Shown here: one piece after another, positions 1-6,724 of the stretch
How the letters are laid out: each line of letters starts with the position of its first letter
How positions within the stretch are numbered: the first letter of the stretch is position 1
Source of the DNA: an uncultured Oscillibacter sp.
GTDB taxonomy: Bacteria > Bacillota > Clostridia > Oscillospirales > Oscillospiraceae
Assembly: GCA_947382875.1 (NCBI GenBank)
Contig: CANDBG010000016.1
Location: 1 to 48,130, forward strand
Reading direction: 5' to 3'
DNA: 48,130 nucleotides
The notes under the pieces: model-generated
The model's input: the letters and a program-made list of their open reading frames with translations, nothing else
The model's database searches: none
What the model was told of the DNA's origin: nothing
Translations under genes and position numbers: made by a program

Positions 1-76
1 AAGCCGCCGAATCTGAGTGCTTTGCGCCAGATAATAACCCAGTATGGATTGACGCAAGCATCAATCCTACCTGGGC

Positions 77-270
77 CAAGGGTTTCACCCTCTGGACACC
101 TGAGCAGGCGTTGTCACCCTGCACCCGACCCAAAGGGCGTTGCCCTCTGGACACCCAGCAGGCGCTGCCGCCCTGCACCCGGCCCAAAGGTTTCACCTCT
201 GGACACTGACCAGACGCTTGCCGCTCTGGACTCGGCGCAAAGGGCTTGCCGCCCTCTGCACTCCCGCCAA
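77..270. repeat. Degenerate 54-bp tandem repeats
   Basis: Three directly abutting units and a partial fourth start at 77, 131, 185 and 238, with a period of 54, 54 and 53 bases. Each unit opens with CAAAGG or CAAGGG, then carries a CTGGACAC block, a CAGGCG/CAGACG block and a CTGCACCC or similar block ending in CGGCC or CGACC. Units match at most positions but are not identical. There are no unique spacers between them, so this is not a CRISPR array. No good reading frame or start site covers them. They probably belong to the mobile segment that fills the left end of the window. Confidence 0.75.
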
Positions 271-319
271 AGGAGCAGAACACCACCATCTGTGGATGTG
301 CGGCGTTCTGCTCCTTTTC
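269..319 (+). terminator. Rho-independent terminator before the AT-hook gene
   Basis: A 16-bp stem with one mismatch pairs 269-284 with 302-317, around a 17-nt loop, and ends in a short T-run. It closes transcription arriving from left of the window and lies just before the promoter-like sequence of the next gene. Confidence 0.75.
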
Positions 320-343
320 AAGAACTGGAAATTGTGCTACAAT
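315..343 (+). promoter_or_regulatory. Predicted sigma-A promoter
   Basis: TTTTCA at 315-320 and TACAAT at 338-343 are separated by 17 bases. A TGC directly before the -10 gives an extended -10 element. The -35 half is weak and overlaps the end of the upstream terminator. The gene at 376 starts about 30 bases downstream. Confidence 0.5.
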
Positions 344-375
344 AGAAATGAAAATGTGATTGGAGGCGGTGCGGC

Positions 376-819
376 TTGGAGAACGAAAAGCGGAAACGGG
401 GCAGGCCCAGAATCGACGCCCATCTGTCGGAGGCTACGGCGCCCAGCCGGAGGCAGGCCGTCAACGAAAAGTACTTGTTTGACGCTGTGCATTTTATTTC
501 GGTAGCCGCTACCGAAATTCCGGACAGCCACCTTTTGTGGCATTCCGATGACGCAACGAAAACAGCCAAAGGCCGCAACGGTATCCTGGAGCAGATCGGA
601 CGGATGCTTGAACAGGACCATGCGCCGCAGCTTGATTGCATCTATGTCACCAATCTGGCAATCCAAGCGGTAAAGGCCGGTCACACCACAAGAGAAATCG
701 AGAAAGCCATTCGGGAAATCCGCAAGGCGTTGAAGCCTCTGACGGCAGACCCGGAGGACAAAACGCTTTTGCTTGCTATGGGACGAGCTGTGAACGCTCT
801 GGACAAGATGGGGCAATAA
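376..819 (+). CDS. Small hypothetical protein with AT-hook-like N-terminus (147 aa)
   Basis: The gene starts with TTG, chosen because GGAGG at 362-366 lies nine bases upstream and no ATG competes. The N-terminus carries a basic KRKRGRPR stretch (residues 5-12) resembling an AT-hook, which in known proteins binds the minor groove of A/T-rich DNA. The rest is predicted helical and ends in a Lys/Glu-rich helix (residues about 105-125). There is no signal peptide or membrane segment. Position between tandem repeats and an XRE regulator fits accessory genes of clostridial integrative elements, perhaps in element maintenance or transcription control; that role is inference. I do not recognise a named family. 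Confidence 0.7.
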   Translation: MENEKRKRGRPRIDAHLSEATAPSRRQAVNEKYLFDAVHFISVAATEIPDSHLLWHSDDATKTAKGRNGILEQIGRMLEQDHAPQLDCIYVTNLAIQAVKAGHTTREIEKAIREIRKALKPLTADPEDKTLLLAMGRAVNALDKMGQ

Positions 820-993
820 TTCGTGTTTTGCCGCTCTCTTCCGAAAGCCGTTCCTGCCCCTGTTCTCTCAGCGGCGTTTCGTTTCCCCTGGTACGCTCTA
901 TGCGATACTTCACCGGGAAACATATCCCTTTCGGACGGTCATTCTGTTTTCAAGCTGCACTGCTGTGATAAAAGTATCGTAACAGAAAAAAGA

Positions 994-1075
994 CCACTCT
1001 CCCGTATATCCAAGAGGTAGGAAATCCGGGGTTAAAACCGGGAATTTCCGCGCTCTCGGAAATGTGGGAGAGTGG
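994..1075 (+). other. Nested inverted repeat in the leader of the XRE regulator
   Basis: The 280 bases between 820 and 1098 hold no convincing gene. Near their end, a perfect 10-bp arm (CCACTCTCCC, 994-1003) pairs with GGGAGAGTGG at 1066-1075, and an imperfect inner hairpin built on GGAAATCCGG and CCGGGAATTTCC lies inside. In RNA this would fold as a two-tier structure ending 10 bases before the Shine-Dalgarno of the next gene. It could be an operator, a leader structure or a former terminator; nothing in the sequence decides. Confidence 0.5.
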
Positions 1076-1098
1076 CAAAAAACATGGAGGACAGCGAT

Positions 1099-1905
1099 AT
1101 GTCGTTGACCATACAGGAACGAATAAAGGATTTGCGGGTGGAACGTGGGCTGACTTTGAAGGAGCTTGCAGAACAAACGGGCCTGTCCTCGTCCGCGCTG
1201 GGCAGCTACGAGGCAGACGATACCAAGGACATCAGCCACTATGCGCTTATCAGGTTGGCAAAATTCTATGGTGTGACCACCGACTATCTGCTGGGGCTGA
1301 CAGAAACAAAACGTCACTCAAATGCGGACTTTGCAGACCTGCGTTTGAGTGACGATATGATCGATATTTTGAAAAGCGACCGGGTGGACAATGCTCTGCT
1401 TTGCGAACTGGCGGCACACCCGGATTTTGTCAAACTGCTGGCTGACATACAGATTTATGTGGAGGGCATCGCCGCCATGCAGATACAAAATCTGAATGCG
1501 TGGGTAGATGTGGCAAGGGCTGAAATTGTAGAGAAGTACCAGCCGGGGGAGAATGACGGAACGGCCTATCTCCTGCAAGCGGCCCATGTGGATGAGGGCG
1601 AGTATTTTGCCAGCCGGGTGCATCGTGACATTGATGCAATCATAGCAGATATGCGGGAGGCACATCGGGGCCGGAGCGACAGCGCACCGGAAAGCTCCGC
1701 CGCAGATGAATTGAAGCGCGACCTGGAGGAAGTTGCCCAATTCAACGGCAGCAAGCTGGAACAGTTGATTATGCTGTTCTGCAAGCAGACGAAACTCCGC
1801 TACAACAAGCTGACCGAGGAGGAAAAACAATGGCTCGCCCGGATTGCGCAGAAGTCGGAACTGCTGAAAGGGGCAGTGTCACAAAGGGGAAAGAAACGGA
1901 AATAA
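1099..1905 (+). CDS. XRE-family HTH transcriptional regulator with long C-terminal region (268 aa)
   Basis: The first 65 residues form a classical XRE/Cro helix-turn-helix: the ERIKDLRVERGLTLKELAEQ helix pair, a GLSSSALGSYE recognition segment, then AKFYGVTTDYLLG. The remaining 200 residues are helical and unassigned, with a Lys/Arg-rich end. The start at 1099 was chosen over an in-frame ATG at 1072 because GGAGG at 1086-1090 is eight bases ahead. It lies in the accessory segment beside a second XRE gene, which suggests control of element genes. The target is unknown. It converges on the small XRE gene downstream. Confidence 0.85.
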   Translation: MSLTIQERIKDLRVERGLTLKELAEQTGLSSSALGSYEADDTKDISHYALIRLAKFYGVTTDYLLGLTETKRHSNADFADLRLSDDMIDILKSDRVDNALLCELAAHPDFVKLLADIQIYVEGIAAMQIQNLNAWVDVARAEIVEKYQPGENDGTAYLLQAAHVDEGEYFASRVHRDIDAIIADMREAHRGRSDSAPESSAADELKRDLEEVAQFNGSKLEQLIMLFCKQTKLRYNKLTEEEKQWLARIAQKSELLKGAVSQRGKKRK

Positions 1906-1986
1906 AATTACGGCTTTATCTTGATTCTCCAAAATTTTTTGAACAAGGACAGCATCTGTCTACCCTGTATGCTATAATGGATACAG

Positions 1987-2223
1987 TCAATCATCTTCAA
2001 ACGTAAGAAATCTATGTGGAGATACTTCGAGTACAGCCGCAATGTCAAACAAGGCATCCAGCGACAATGCTTTGGTGATATTTGGCGCCTCCAGATGTCC
2101 GATAAAGGCTGGGGTCAAACCTACCTGCTCTGCCAGTTCCTCTTGGGTCAGTCCTCGCAATTTTCGATAGTAAGCAATTTTCAAACCGATTTGGCGGTAC
2201 TTGTCTGCATAAATCTGTTTCAT
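1987..2223 (-). CDS. Small XRE-family HTH regulator (78 aa)
   Basis: The product is essentially one helix-turn-helix domain: IGLKIAYYRKLRGLTQEEL, then EQVGLTPAFIGHLEAPN and a short C-terminal helix with SPHRFLTFE. The ATG at 2223 has GGAGG eight bases upstream; the longer open frame to 2394 has no ribosome site and reads through the intergenic region, so it was rejected. It is transcribed divergently from the WYL regulator, with about 127 bases between them, so it probably represses this divergent region. Single-domain XRE proteins of this size are common in integrative elements. Its operator was not identified. Confidence 0.85.
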   Translation of the reverse strand: MKQIYADKYRQIGLKIAYYRKLRGLTQEELAEQVGLTPAFIGHLEAPNITKALSLDALFDIAAVLEVSPHRFLTFEDD

Positions 2224-2269
2224 AGGCAATTCCTCCGCATCTTTATATGATAAAGAATCGAGATAGGAA

Positions 2270-2298
2270 TTGACATGAGCGGATAAATATATTATTAT
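2270..2298 (+). promoter_or_regulatory. Strong predicted promoter of the WYL operon
   Basis: A consensus TTGACA at 2270-2275 and TATTAT at 2293-2298 are separated by exactly 17 bases. They lie in the A/T-rich divergent region, about 52 bases before the WYL start codon. Either the WYL protein or the divergent XRE protein could act here. Confidence 0.75.
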
Positions 2299-2350
2299 AA
2301 GTAACAGATATAGATATGTATTTACCAGCACATATCCAGGAGGACAGTTT

Positions 2351-3277
2351 ATGGAAGATGTAACATTCCTCAAATCTGACCGTATCCTCCACATCTATTT
2401 CCAATTAGCACAGGGGGAGGCCGCAACAAAAAAAGAATTGGCACAACAGTTCCATGTCACCGAGCGAAGCATTCAACGTGATCTCGGCGTGTTGCGCTGC
2501 TTTTTGGAAGAACTGGGTACCATGCAGGAGATTGTCTGCGATAAGGTATCGCACAAATACTACATTCAGGACAGTTCGGTACAGACGTTGAGCAACAGCG
2601 AAATCCTGGCGGTCTGCAAAATTCTATTAGAGAGCCGTTCCATGCGAAAAGATGAAATGCTCCCGATTTTGGACAAGCTGATTTCACGCTGTGTTCCAGA
2701 GCAGAACAAGAAAGCGGTACAGGAACTAATCGCAAATGAGAAATACCACTACATAGAGCCGCATCATAATAGGCGTATCTTGGATGGACTATGGGAAATC
2801 GGACAGGCGGTTCAGAAGCATCAGGTATTGGAAATTCAATATGAGCGTTTGAAGGAACCTAGATTGATCGTGCGGCGAGTGCTGCCGGTAGGAATTATGT
2901 TTTCAGAGTATTATTTCTACCTGACCGCATTTTTAGAGGACAAAACAAATTTCGATAACCCTGACGATTTGTTTCCGACTATCTACCGCATCGACCGTAT
3001 CCGCTCACTCAAGGTACTGGATGAACACTTCCATGTGCCGTATAAAGACCGTTTTGAGGAAGGTGAATTCCGGAAACGTGTGCAGTTTATGTATGGCGGA
3101 AAATTAGAGCATATTCAATTCCGCTATACTGGTCCTTCATTAGAAGCGGTGCTGGACCGCCTGCCAACAGCGGAAGTCGTGGGCGATGAAAACGATGGGT
3201 GGGTCATCCGGGCGGAGGTGTTCGGAAAAGGTATTGATATGTGGCTGCGAAGTCAAGGGGACTACATAGTAATATGA
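2351..3277 (+). CDS. WYL-domain transcriptional regulator (308 aa)
   Basis: Residues about 10-60 form a winged HTH of the HTH_11 type (ATKKELAQQFHVTERSIQRD). A WYL-type sensor domain follows at about 145-230, with LEIQYERL and RVLPVGIMFSEYYFYLTAF, and a WCX-like C-terminal domain ends the protein. Known WYL regulators such as BrxR and CapW sense nucleic-acid or nucleotide ligands and often repress bacterial defence operons. The start has AGGAGG upstream and a near-consensus promoter. It is followed by the glycine-zipper and 467-residue genes, all co-directional with short gaps. Control of those two genes is inferred from position. Confidence 0.88.
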   Translation: MEDVTFLKSDRILHIYFQLAQGEAATKKELAQQFHVTERSIQRDLGVLRCFLEELGTMQEIVCDKVSHKYYIQDSSVQTLSNSEILAVCKILLESRSMRKDEMLPILDKLISRCVPEQNKKAVQELIANEKYHYIEPHHNRRILDGLWEIGQAVQKHQVLEIQYERLKEPRLIVRRVLPVGIMFSEYYFYLTAFLEDKTNFDNPDDLFPTIYRIDRIRSLKVLDEHFHVPYKDRFEEGEFRKRVQFMYGGKLEHIQFRYTGPSLEAVLDRLPTAEVVGDENDGWVIRAEVFGKGIDMWLRSQGDYIVI

Positions 3278-3332
3278 ACGACCTGTGAGGAATCACCAGG
3301 AAACACAAAAATATTTTAGGAGGAAATTGAAA

Positions 3333-3881
3333 ATGGGAGAATACGTTAAGAGCAAAAAAGATATGCGATTTCAAAGTCAAGATGCCCTGAAGACAGTACA
3401 GAGCGTAATTGATGATGCAGATCTGGCCTTGAACGACAAATCGAGGAGGATGTCCGATTCTCCAATTGGAGAGGCACTTGCTGGTGCGGTTGGTGTTGGT
3501 GTGGGGGCTGGAATCGGTTTTGCCGGACTTTATTTGGGGGGTTCTGTTGTCGGCCTTAGTGCTGCTGGTATTACAAGTGGACTGGCTGCGGCAGGTAGTT
3601 TGATTGGCGGCGGTATGGTTGCCGGAATTGCTGTGTTAGCGGCCCCCGCTGTTGTGCTGGGTGGAATTGGTATGGGTGCCGCATCTCATGTGAGGAATAA
3701 GAAACTCCGCGAAGCAAAAGAACTTATCTATAAGAACGCTATTGCAAAGCAAACAGCAATCGTAAAAGCGCTCAAAGAAGAAAAGGATGCCGACAAAGAA
3801 AGGATTGACTACCTGACTGGGTTAAATGTTCTTCTGCAAGCTGCCATTAAGGATTTGAAACACGATTTGGGAATTTCGTAG
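3333..3881 (+). CDS. Glycine-zipper membrane protein in a WYL-led operon (182 aa)
   Basis: The start at 3333 follows AGGAGG closely; an in-frame ATG at 3285 has no such site. Residues 1-44 are polar. Residues about 45-120 are a long Gly/Ala-rich hydrophobic stretch with repeated GxxxG spacing (for example GVGVGAGIGFAG and AAGSLIGGGMVAG), enough for two or three packed membrane helices. The last 60 residues are a charged helix likely to form a coiled coil (LKEEKDADKERIDYL). There is no signal peptide. Glycine zippers in known proteins support oligomeric membrane insertion. Pairing with the next gene and the WYL regulator makes a membrane effector plausible, but no family name can be given. Confidence 0.7.
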   Translation: MGEYVKSKKDMRFQSQDALKTVQSVIDDADLALNDKSRRMSDSPIGEALAGAVGVGVGAGIGFAGLYLGGSVVGLSAAGITSGLAAAGSLIGGGMVAGIAVLAAPAVVLGGIGMGAASHVRNKKLREAKELIYKNAIAKQTAIVKALKEEKDADKERIDYLTGLNVLLQAAIKDLKHDLGIS

Positions 3882-3905
3882 GTATCTTAGAGGGAGGAAA
3901 CCCTG

Positions 3906-5309
3906 ATGAGCAGATTCCAGTATTCAGAGCAGGAAAAGGATTTGAATAAGGTACTGAAGATGAATCAAGACAGATCATTATCCTTAAGAAATGATTCTGA
4001 CATGGCCGCTACAAGACAGACAGCTGATGCGGCGATTGATTCATCTCTGGAATTATTACAGTCGCTCGGAAGACATATTGATGTTGAAAAGCTGAAGCAG
4101 GAAATTGCTGTTCAAGGAAAAGACCGGCGCTTGGAACACCGTCCAAAGCTGGAAACATGGGATGAAATTGTGCGTCAGTCAAATGAGTACTGTCCTGTGC
4201 CAGTCGTATTGGAAGATATCATGTCTGCAAGTGAAATCGATGCATCCTTCCGTGAGTTGGATACAATAAATAAGGAATTTTCTCGGCAGACAAGCCTTAT
4301 CAACAAAACTGATTTATCGTTTCTCGCTATTGCAACAGCTCTGCAAGTAACAAAAGCATTACTATTTCCCTATATTGCAGCCTCAGCTGGCTATGGAAGC
4401 GGGTTTGACCCGAACAAACGGATGGCTCACAATGACAAATCCATAGAGCAAAAACATAAAGAGGCTAATGACGCTTTTAAGGAGAAAAAACTTGCGGATA
4501 ACAAGGGCAAAATTGGTTATTGGATCAATATTTTATATCAAACACCACCATACGACATTACGCGAGGATCACCTGCCGCGGGCATCCAGCTTCATGGTGG
4601 CGAACACCGGCTGTATACGTTAGGTCACGATCCAATACTCGGCTGGCTCTTTGGAACGATGAATATCCTGACTGATATTATAACAACGAATGATTTCCAG
4701 TCGCGCCGAGTACAAAGGAATCCGATGATAATTTTGCCGGGAAATGTTCCAGTATCCACTATGATACAGGAAAGCCGGGAAATGATAGAGGCAGACAGGT
4801 TGAATTTACCAGCAGCAATCTTTGCTCAAGCACAACACCTAAAGTCAGACGAGTTTACTAAAGCCGGACTCCCCGTTCCGGTTCTCGCTGTTATCAACGA
4901 GCAGTTTGCCAGCAAATTATACAAAGAACACTATGATGCACTATGTTTTTCTCGTGATGCAAAGATTGTAGGTGTTTCTTTTATTCTATCGGTTTTGATT
5001 GATATGATTATCGGCCTTACTCATGGCCTTTTCCGTGATGAAAGTATTGTAAAAGATATTTACGAAGTACGAACCCGTAAAATTCTTTTGATTTCTAATT
5101 CTATTGCATCTGCCAGCACGATTATCAATGCAGGTATTACCTCAAATCCAAAAAATCTTGATATCGGCAGTTTGTTGAACACAGTTGCTCACCTGTTTTT
5201 GGATATCCGCTTTATTGCGCGTATTAAACAAGAATACATTGAAGCACAAATACAGAATAAGTTACAGACAGAATTTGAGGAAATCGATCAAATTTACAGA
5301 GAAATCTGA
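3906..5309 (+). CDS. Unclassified 467-residue protein, partner of the glycine-zipper protein
   Basis: I do not recognise this family. GGAGG lies just before the ATG, 24 bases after the previous gene, so the two are probably co-transcribed. Residues 1-130 are charged and helical. Residues 138-165 are hydrophobic. A distinctive GHDPILGWLFGT motif at 240-251, followed by NILTD, looks like a conserved functional site. Residues 354-371 could cross or dip into a membrane. The C-terminus is a long charged helix. There is no P-loop, nuclease or peptidase motif visible. The gene is A/T-richer than the flanking chromosome, consistent with transfer. A role in defence or in element biology is inference. 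Confidence 0.65.
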   Translation: MSRFQYSEQEKDLNKVLKMNQDRSLSLRNDSDMAATRQTADAAIDSSLELLQSLGRHIDVEKLKQEIAVQGKDRRLEHRPKLETWDEIVRQSNEYCPVPVVLEDIMSASEIDASFRELDTINKEFSRQTSLINKTDLSFLAIATALQVTKALLFPYIAASAGYGSGFDPNKRMAHNDKSIEQKHKEANDAFKEKKLADNKGKIGYWINILYQTPPYDITRGSPAAGIQLHGGEHRLYTLGHDPILGWLFGTMNILTDIITTNDFQSRRVQRNPMIILPGNVPVSTMIQESREMIEADRLNLPAAIFAQAQHLKSDEFTKAGLPVPVLAVINEQFASKLYKEHYDALCFSRDAKIVGVSFILSVLIDMIIGLTHGLFRDESIVKDIYEVRTRKILLISNSIASASTIINAGITSNPKNLDIGSLLNTVAHLFLDIRFIARIKQEYIEAQIQNKLQTEFEEIDQIYREI

Positions 5310-5343
5310 TTACAGGCTACTATGAAGAATTGAGACAACAAAC

Positions 5344-5378
5344 AGGGGGAGCAACTATTGAATGTAGTTGCTCCCCCT
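5344..5378. terminator. Perfect 13-bp hairpin at the island edge
   Basis: AGGGGGAGCAACT at 5344-5356 pairs perfectly with 5366-5378 around a 9-nt loop. There is no strong T-run on either side, so it may be a weak bidirectional terminator or a structure of the element end. It separates the 467-residue gene from the truncated racemase gene. Confidence 0.6.
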
Positions 5379-5452
5379 GCTCGCTTATATGATGTTCGGA
5401 CATGAGTATCTGTAAGCGCAAGTTGTCGGTGTGTATCCTTAAACAAATTACA
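5379..5452. mobile_element. Probable right boundary of the inserted island
   Basis: Reading leftward through the racemase gene, the family sequence continues to about GKTH (codon 121) and then meets a stop at 5448. The bases beyond (5379-5450) match no racemase coding sequence. The junction is therefore close to 5450. The other end and any flanking direct repeat lie outside the window, so neither an integrase class nor an attachment core can be named. Confidence 0.5.
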
Positions 5453-5819
5453 CATCATGCGTTTTTCCAATCCGACGGGCCTCTGCCGCCGCCGCTTGTA
5501 TGGTATGGATCTCCGAATGGAGCGCAATGTCGCAATACCGAACAGCCTCCTCCATTTCGGACAGCATGGGGGAGCGGATCAGCCATTTTTCACAGGGAAA
5601 GCCCGTCAGCTTTTTCAGATTTCCTACCCGTGCATCGCCAAGCCTGGTAATACCGCCGTCCAAAAGCGCGGATGCAGCCCGCAAGTCTGCACAGAACGAT
5701 TTCGTAACACCAGTTACCATAATTCCATGCTTTGCGCACATACCCAGCACCTGACCCGTATTTTCGCGGATTACCCCAAGGTCCATGCATAAGCGGGGAT
5801 ATGACTCTGTTCTGTTCAC
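5448..5819 (-). pseudogene. Truncated ornithine/alanine racemase-family PLP enzyme, N-terminal third
   Basis: The 123 residues match the beginning of the ornithine-racemase-like branch of the alanine-racemase N-terminal family: YPRLCMDLGVIRENT, GVTKSFCADLRAA with the PLP-lysine region, a GDARVGNLKKL segment, RSPMLSEMEEAVRYCDIALHSE and then GKTH. Members of this family are about 350 residues long, so two thirds are missing. The GTG start overlaps the ptb stop by four bases (GTGA), indicating translational coupling in the buk-ptb operon. The frame ends where the island begins. The product is almost certainly inactive, since most of the barrel and the C-terminal beta domain are gone. Confidence 0.8.
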
Positions 5820-6724
5820 TTTTTTGAAACCAGAACACCTAAGGCAAGAGAGGCGTACTTGGACTTCGGGTCGCTGGCCCGGGAAGGCAGAATCACCGGC
5901 GCAGACATTCCCATTACGATTCCGGCGTTAGAGGAATGCAGGAGGTAATTCAGCGTTTTTGAGAACACGTTTGCCGTTTCAATACTGGGCGCAAGCACAA
6001 TATCTGCCTGTCCGGCCACTTCGCTGACAATCCCTTTTTTCTTCGCCGCCTCCGCAGACAGAATGTTGTCAATGGCTAAAGGACCATCGACAATCGCGTC
6101 GCCGAATACCTGACGGTCCGCCATTTTAGAGAGACAGGCGGCGTCCAGAGTTGCCTGCATTTTCGGATTCACCGACTCCACCGCCGCCAGACAGGCCGCC
6201 TTTGGGCGTACCATGCCCAAACGGCGCGCCACATCCATAGCGTTTTTCAAAATATCCGCTTTTTCCATTAGCGTGGGGGCGATGTTCAGCCCGCCGTCGG
6301 TGCTGATCAGCAATCGGTTAAAACCGGGAATGTCCAAAACGATCATGTGGCTCGCCAGACGGCCGATGTTCAAGCCATTGTTTTTGTCCAGAGCCGCTTT
6401 CAGCAGTGCGCCGGTAGACATGGCGCCTTTCATCAGAATATGGTTTTCTCCGTTCTTCACGGAGAGAACCGCGGCCCGTGTTGCCTCGCTGCTGTCGGGG
6501 ATATCGGAAATTTCCAGGCCGGAGATATCCAGCTCAATTTCCGCCGCGGCGGCAGCAATTTTTTCCCGGCTTCCGTACAGCCGCGGAACGGCAAGGCCGG
6601 ACTCCACAGCGTCCTTGACGGCGTGAAGGGTGTTTTTATCGTGGGGCAGGGCAACGGCAATGCCTTGCCCGGGACGCTTCTTCGCCTGTTCCAGCAGTTC
6701 GTCAAAATTTTTGATGGCTTCCAT
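5816..6724 (-). CDS. ptb: Phosphate butyryltransferase
   Basis: This 302-residue protein belongs to the phosphate acetyl/butyryltransferase family and would convert butyryl-CoA or a branched-chain or aryl acyl-CoA plus phosphate to the acyl phosphate and CoA in the cytoplasm. Family signatures include ENHILMKGAMSTGALLKA, the HMIVLDIPGFNRLL-ISTDGG block, and the C-terminal HSSNAGIVMGMSAPVILPSR. The ATG at 6724 was preferred to an in-frame TTG at 6730 because AAAGGA is ten bases upstream. It lies between buk and the truncated racemase, in one leftward operon. Together with buk it yields ATP by substrate-level phosphorylation. Confidence 0.93.
   Translation of the reverse strand: MEAIKNFDELLEQAKKRPGQGIAVALPHDKNTLHAVKDAVESGLAVPRLYGSREKIAAAAAEIELDISGLEISDIPDSSEATRAAVLSVKNGENHILMKGAMSTGALLKAALDKNNGLNIGRLASHMIVLDIPGFNRLLISTDGGLNIAPTLMEKADILKNAMDVARRLGMVRPKAACLAAVESVNPKMQATLDAACLSKMADRQVFGDAIVDGPLAIDNILSAEAAKKKGIVSEVAGQADIVLAPSIETANVFSKTLNYLLHSSNAGIVMGMSAPVILPSRASDPKSKYASLALGVLVSKK

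Follow-up and report, generated by a model that had tools for sequence, protein, structure and literature searches.

We analysed a 48,130-bp contig of an uncultured Oscillibacter sp. (GenBank CANDBG010000016.1, assembly GCA_947382875.1; G000:C16:1-48130, hereafter the window), which belongs to a draft genome of 2.77 Mb in 113 contigs, 87.5% complete. Near its left end lies a short module in which the gene of a WYL regulator is followed by two genes, here called A and B. We found that B matches BnzB over nearly its full length and that A matches the glycine-zipper region of BnzA, both from the catalogued defence system Bunzi, suggesting that the module is reasonably likely to be a defence module related to Bunzi.

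Layout of the locus

From left to right, the locus comprises an HTH_3 gene (HTH, helix-turn-helix), a divergent HTH_3 gene, a promoter, the WYL gene, A, B, an inverted repeat, the end of a mobile element and a racemase-like gene fragment (Table 1). The initial annotation, made from the letters of the DNA, had placed a WYL regulator behind a near-consensus promoter at the head of the operon, and both points hold. The regulator matches PF13280 above the curated cut-off, and its HTH_11 match (1.6e-4) lies below the HTH_11 cut-off. The promoter is kept in two of the loci compared with the window (these carry L numbers), L010 and L011, with ATTGACATGAGCG invariant in 3/3; promoter-like sites are not enriched in 1900-5480 (7, versus 7.2 in shuffles). 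The divergent HTH_3 gene, which the annotation had overlooked, has counterparts of 76-78 aa in L010 and L011, and together with the WYL gene it flanks the conserved promoter.

Table 1. Features of the locus, with positions in the window and the basis of each assignment (ORF, open reading frame).
Feature	Position	Strand	Basis
Mobile-element HTH_3 gene, adjoining the cargo slot on its left	1072-1905	+	PF01381, E 2.6e-11
Divergent 78-aa HTH_3 regulator	1987-2223	-	HTH_3 match in longer ORF 1987-2394
Promoter TTGACA-17-TATTAT	2270-2298	+	11/12 consensus positions
WYL transcription regulator, 308 aa	2351-3277	+	PF13280, E 1.3e-8
A, glycine-zipper protein, 182 aa	3333-3881	+	PADLOC BnzA, E 4.4e-12
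B, BnzB-family protein, 467 aa	3906-5309	+	PADLOC BnzB, E 2.4e-27
15-nt perfect inverted repeat 3' of B, possible terminator	5343-5379		Repeat search
Right end of the mobile element	5401-5456		86-89% identical to G020:C47 and G030:C9
Racemase-like gene fragment, stops at the element end	5448-5819	-	PF01168, 0.0037 (weak, below cut-off)

With an HTH and a WYL domain and a position ahead of a defence-type operon, the window regulator resembles CapW and BrxR. The available parts of the respective reports describe CapW as a WYL repressor of an operon of the cyclic-oligonucleotide-based antiphage signalling system (CBASS; PMC9122588), and BrxR as that of a bacteriophage exclusion (BREX) operon, with 48% of BrxR homologues near defence systems (PMC9122601). 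The winged HTH and WYL domains of a regulator of this type were both found in the window protein, the former as the HTH_11 match below its cut-off. Unlike theirs, its role as a repressor is putative. In a phmmer search against PDB chains it matched neither CapW nor BrxR, a distant relation being possible, and at E 1 or better only unrelated chains were obtained.

The composition of the module agreed with the earlier description of it as A/T-richer than the chromosome: its G+C content is 43.5%, as compared with 54.2% in 5460-48130, and 0/79 sliding windows of the module's length reach so low a value. Its position beside the edge of a mobile segment was likewise borne out, as alignments with three other loci break off at 5455-5456 (at 5455 for L008), and the 56 bp of this end recur twice elsewhere in the genus. 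By these alignments, an integrated mobile element carries the module as cargo. The racemase-like gene was apparently cut by the element, its truncation being judged from its length; the rest of this gene was not located. The inverted repeat behind B is absent from the terminator-like sites listed by a terminator scan, and an Rfam scan of positions 1-6000 gave no match reaching gathering level.

Relation of A and B to Bunzi

The initial annotation could not assign B to any known family. We found, however, that residues 24-458 of B match positions 51-498 of the 504-position BnzB model of PADLOC, that is, near full length, and that a profile of 24 B sequences aligned by hhalign with six BnzB sequences (four canonical, two related) at 99.9% (E 4.2e-37). 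In the reverse search, the B profile recovered the BnzB proteins of Lactococcus and Vibrio plasmids (E 7e-44 to 1.8e-30). The PADLOC BnzA model matches A only at positions 294-407 of 544, and because glycine-rich matches may be compositional, this match was retested in two further ways. An hhalign comparison of 22 A sequences with four canonical BnzA gave 91.7% (E 7.6e-7, BnzA residues 304-423), and a search with the A profile gave 1.7e-11 for the Vibrio BnzA (residues 285-440) and 2.8e-5 to 3.8e-4 for three Lactococcus BnzA; GLSAAGLTSGLSALG in the Vibrio BnzA aligns with GLSAAGITSGLAAAG in the window A. Since these three kinds of match agree, A is, as far as profile comparison goes, the glycine-zipper region of BnzA and the part following it, without the N-terminal part. 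The earlier description of A as a GxxxG-rich membrane protein stands, with nine GxxxG motifs and three hydrophobic stretches, but the GTG start assigned to it at 3285 is probably wrong, because the ATG at 3333 is preceded by an AGGAGG box and A starts at the same place in L008 and L009.

The module is thus similar to Bunzi in its near full-length BnzB relative, in the glycine-zipper match of A and in the order A then B. It differs in that the 182-aa A is without the N-terminal part of the BnzA model, and in the WYL and HTH_3 genes ahead of the pair; pLLI11B aside, the three bnzAB plasmid loci inspected have no WYL gene directly upstream. Since the N-terminal half of BnzA is absent, we do not class the module as textbook Bunzi; in sequence terms, it is Bunzi-related but N-terminally shortened. 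A TerB domain is listed for Bunzi in the available part of one source (PMC10952713). We detected no TerB match in A, in B or in the window's own draft genome at its 87.5% completeness, and likewise none in canonical BnzA. The available part of a 2026 review (PMC12926258) lists the mechanism of Bunzi as unknown. No mechanism was met in the accessible portion of the literature on Bunzi, BnzA/BnzB and glycine zippers in defence; the founding paper and the lactococcal surveys lie outside that scope and may describe relatives. The literature searched made no mention of the accessions of the lactococcal relatives.

The annotation had also singled out a motif in B, and GHDPILGWLFGT indeed starts at residue 240 of the 467-aa protein; it includes H241, P243 and G246 and leads into the hydrophobic stretch at 244-262. 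Alignment of 57 B domains shows D217 and H234 in 57/57, H241 in 56/57, and H311 and D315 each in 56/56 (rows having a letter), and these five residues are kept by all four canonical BnzB. G246 (57/57), P243 (56/57), P325 (55/57), S314 (54/56), and D136 and D344 (53/56 each) are also conserved; D242 is not general (46/57). Because the Asp/His set is near invariant even at 20-25% identity, it suggests a metal or catalytic site in B, and the conserved residues form a short candidate list for changing in canonical BnzB, the mechanism of which the review portion cited above gives as unknown. The earlier division of the pair into a membrane effector and a soluble sensor does not hold as stated, since B also has hydrophobic stretches of membrane type in addition to the Asp/His set. 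B may therefore be an enzyme or an effector, and we tentatively entertain an enzymatic effector, without calling this probable.

By inspection, B is similar to the membrane-bound metal-dependent hydrolases of the YdjM family (PF04307) in the order D, HR, H, HxxxD and in a G six residues past the last D. It differs in lacking a significant profile match to YdjM, and homology was rejected: the profile tests gave a probability of 1.5% (P 0.034) with 33 YdjM sequences and 0.3% with 4 sequences. The best local alignment covered 31 columns (P 0.034), as compared with P 0.37-0.69 for three control profiles.

Pairing and carriage of the genes

A and B are 24 bp apart on the same strand in the window, and 37 of the 38 places counted, mostly viral contigs, have A upstream of B at a distance of no more than 1 kb, the exception being L068. 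A conserved A-B pairing therefore exists without the N-terminal part of BnzA. The 38 places are those with a B of window type, counted by hand, omitting duplicate contigs, the second, truncated copy that L071 carries, and two less related loci, L091 (without A) and L116 (with A). Within this count, L096 was entered through the A search; L075/L076, L080/L081 and the L077 group are near-copies; B is broken by a stop in L074 and L093; and A is incomplete in L071. The spacing is 350-415 bp in nine places, eight of which have an ORF of 76-132 aa between the genes. An extra ORF of 113-132 aa lies between A and B in L069, L073, L075, L079, L086 and L090, and in some of these its end resembles the C-terminal part of A. 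The 780-800 aa proteins of L053-L055 were considered as A-B fusions and rejected, as the A profile gave no match and the B profile matched only L055, weakly.

Relatives of B occur in 6/99 related genomes, matches to the BnzB model in 21/391 genomes of the class, and A, by profile, in 3/398 genomes of the phylum (own genome included in each). Twelve plasmid records and two phage records hold B relatives, and scans of viral contigs yielded 25 loci for B and 23 for A, for the most part on shared contigs. The pair is thus carried by viral contigs, plasmids and an integrated element, yet neither protein obtained a usable name from Pfam, NCBIfam or PHROGs, and searches of both against PDB sequences gave unconvincing matches only. 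On viral contigs, where neighbours were assigned by a motif rule and inspection with no family scan, the pair adjoins large serine recombinase genes in L070, L073, L075, L079, L080, L086, L090, L093 and L096. The contigs of the L077 group, which also carry it, are Mu-like; in L071 it is flanked by ParB- and terminase-like genes, and in L083 and L084 it has tail-type genes beside it. In the neighbourhoods read, we saw no consistent association of homologs with conjugation or housekeeping genes, a pattern that the initial annotation had named as speaking against defence.

Carriage of this kind raises superinfection exclusion, in which the pair would be lysogenic-conversion cargo that blocks the entry or injection of related phages and lets the cell survive. 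It agrees with the predominance of viral contigs among the counted places, with the serine recombinase and lysis-type genes that adjoin the pair in several of them (by the same motif rule and inspection), and with a related B, here B', that accompanies a WYL gene on the phage-resistance plasmid pNP40. We nevertheless consider it unlikely, since neither the canonical Bunzi relatives nor the element in the window are prophages and the WYL switch suggests induction after infection begins.

Of the 190 pairs formed by 20 matched loci, 189 showed higher conservation in A than in B, and in the 109 pairs with B below 40% identity the means were 55% for A and 25% for B. Such a difference would be predicted if the effector stayed constant and the sensor varied, as would fit abortive infection by A: the glycine-zipper hairpins of this pore-forming effector would make openings in the membrane or depolarise it, with B as the faster-evolving sensor or gate for a phage component. 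The abundance of glycine zippers and the three hydrophobic stretches of A are in line with this. However, B is of membrane type too, and its near-invariant Asp/His set at 20-25% identity would be unusual for a mere sensor, so that we regard this explanation as improbable. The ratios of nonsynonymous to synonymous substitution (dN/dS) for A and B among the window, L008, L009 and L011 were 0.03-0.10 in 11/12 comparisons (one B value was not computable), pointing to strong purifying selection on both genes.

The slot occupied by the module carries a different load in a sister element, L130 (735-8018), from a genome of the same genus, which shares the HTH gene (84.5% identical DNA) and the element end with the window. 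This load comprises a type I restriction enzyme (2.2e-275), a fused methyltransferase-specificity protein (2.5e-171) and a PifA-like KAP NTPase (2.8e-80). Downstream of 87% identical HTH genes lie a ShosA-like protein in L138 (1.8e-9) and a PDC-M26A match in L139 (3e-49); the element end was looked for in these two loci and not found. In L155, with a more distant HTH gene, a type I restriction-modification (R-M) system was found. Near relatives of B, type I R-M genes were found in L040, L044, L053, L062 and L074, and Cas9 in L058.

Proposed function and related WYL operons

Taken together, the homology to Bunzi, the load of the sister slot, the carriage by viral contigs and the recurrent linkage to WYL genes support the candidate defence system proposed in the initial annotation. 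Several results weigh against it. The pooled PADLOC comparison of 53 slot ORFs with 57 ORFs further downstream, the only count that includes L140, a fourth locus with a close HTH gene, was not discriminating. The downstream controls in that count also had R-M and other defence matches, which partly belong to the rest of the L155 R-M operon; the slot argument therefore rests on L130 and, more weakly, on L138 and L139. The R-M and Cas9 neighbours of B relatives were hand-picked (nine proteins, seven matched), without a base rate. L008 and L009 hold the A-B pair without a WYL gene. As the N-terminal part of BnzA is missing, the tested Bunzi may not predict the function of the window module. Profile comparison of B, with its invariant set, matched no known enzyme, and an AlphaFold model of B from 24 sequences was poor (mean predicted local distance difference test score, pLDDT, 55.7; predicted template modelling score 0.34), with pLDDT below 50 at 125-184 and most of 312-445, which is neutral on an active site. 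A general function for mobile elements or phages, such as lysis timing or stress, would agree with the pooled result, with the general carriage by mobile elements and with the lysis-type genes beside several pairs, but it is the least probable explanation in view of the homology to a catalogued defence system and of the type I R-M and PifA-like genes that fill the slot in L130.

For the favoured defence module, we propose that the WYL protein, perhaps together with the divergent HTH protein, would repress the operon in the manner of CapW and BrxR, and that upon infection a nucleic-acid or damage signal would release it. A and B would then gather at the membrane, where B, as a membrane-associated and probably metal-dependent enzyme, would act through the conserved site, part of which lies beside a hydrophobic stretch. 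Its substrate could be membrane, envelope or nucleotide, and its action would stop the infected cell or the incoming phage.

A broader hypothesis, possible but short of probable, is that Bunzi may belong to a larger, modular superfamily of defence systems that shares A-B as a portable core. B would be a membrane-associated, metal-dependent enzyme of a new type, with D217, H234, H241, H311 and D315 at its centre, and WYL control and swappable partners would be added to the A-B core. These partners would be the N-terminal part of BnzA, a dynamin, a protein with EF-Tu domain 3, an ADP-ribosylglycohydrolase fused to A, and a Sel1-DUF697 protein. The fusion was seen on the viral contig L072 (4619-5998; the same contig as L107), where an A domain lies behind an ADP-ribosylglycohydrolase domain (PF03747, 1.5e-34) and B follows directly.

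The recurrence of WYL genes was examined with a profile built from nine WYL proteins and searched against 95 loci, L117 (the window's own copy) not being counted. The resulting clade comprises ten loci, the window, L010, L011, L051, L056, L057, L058, L064, L065 and L066, that is, the nine seeds and L058. The partner is A in the window, L010, L011 and L057. On a megaplasmid of Eubacterium eligens (L066, 8846-13661), the WYL gene, a B relative and a dynamin (1.9e-18) stand in a row, as they do in L056 (6432-11511), where the dynamin is split over two ORFs. No dynamin GTPase gene was found among the eight window ORFs scanned, in which the module differs from the LeoABC-type dynamin systems. In L058 (4865-13784), from a genome of the same genus, the order is WYL, Sel1-DUF697 protein, B relative and then Cas9.

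On pNP40 (NC_010901.1; L064, 8956-12543), a lactococcal phage-resistance plasmid, the WYL gene and B' are accompanied by a 486-aa protein that is annotated as hypothetical and ends in EF-Tu domain 3 (PF03143, 7.1e-23). The comparison thus highlights this uncharacterised WYL-B' operon as a candidate defence operon. On pLLI11B, a WYL-B' operon directly precedes canonical bnzAB, in the order WYL, 205-aa protein, B', bnzA (5.1e-128) and bnzB (2.7e-150). In a tree of the 57 B domains, the root of which is for drawing only and several branches of which are long, the window group and the pNP40 group share one side of a branch with 100/100 support, and most phage pairs, canonical BnzB and L051 lie on the other. 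The WYL-B' operons of Lactococcus (pNP40, pLLI11B) and E. eligens are thus similar to the window module in their WYL clade and in the side of this branch on which their B relatives fall, and differ in the partner, which is the EF-Tu domain-3 protein, canonical bnzAB or a dynamin.

A further arrangement of BnzB relatives was seen in L040 and L041, which have small TerB-like ORFs, one small ORF rich in cysteine and a second protein in their vicinity, the last of these matching PDC-M09A in L040 (1.2e-31); this arrangement is possibly a split version of Bunzi.

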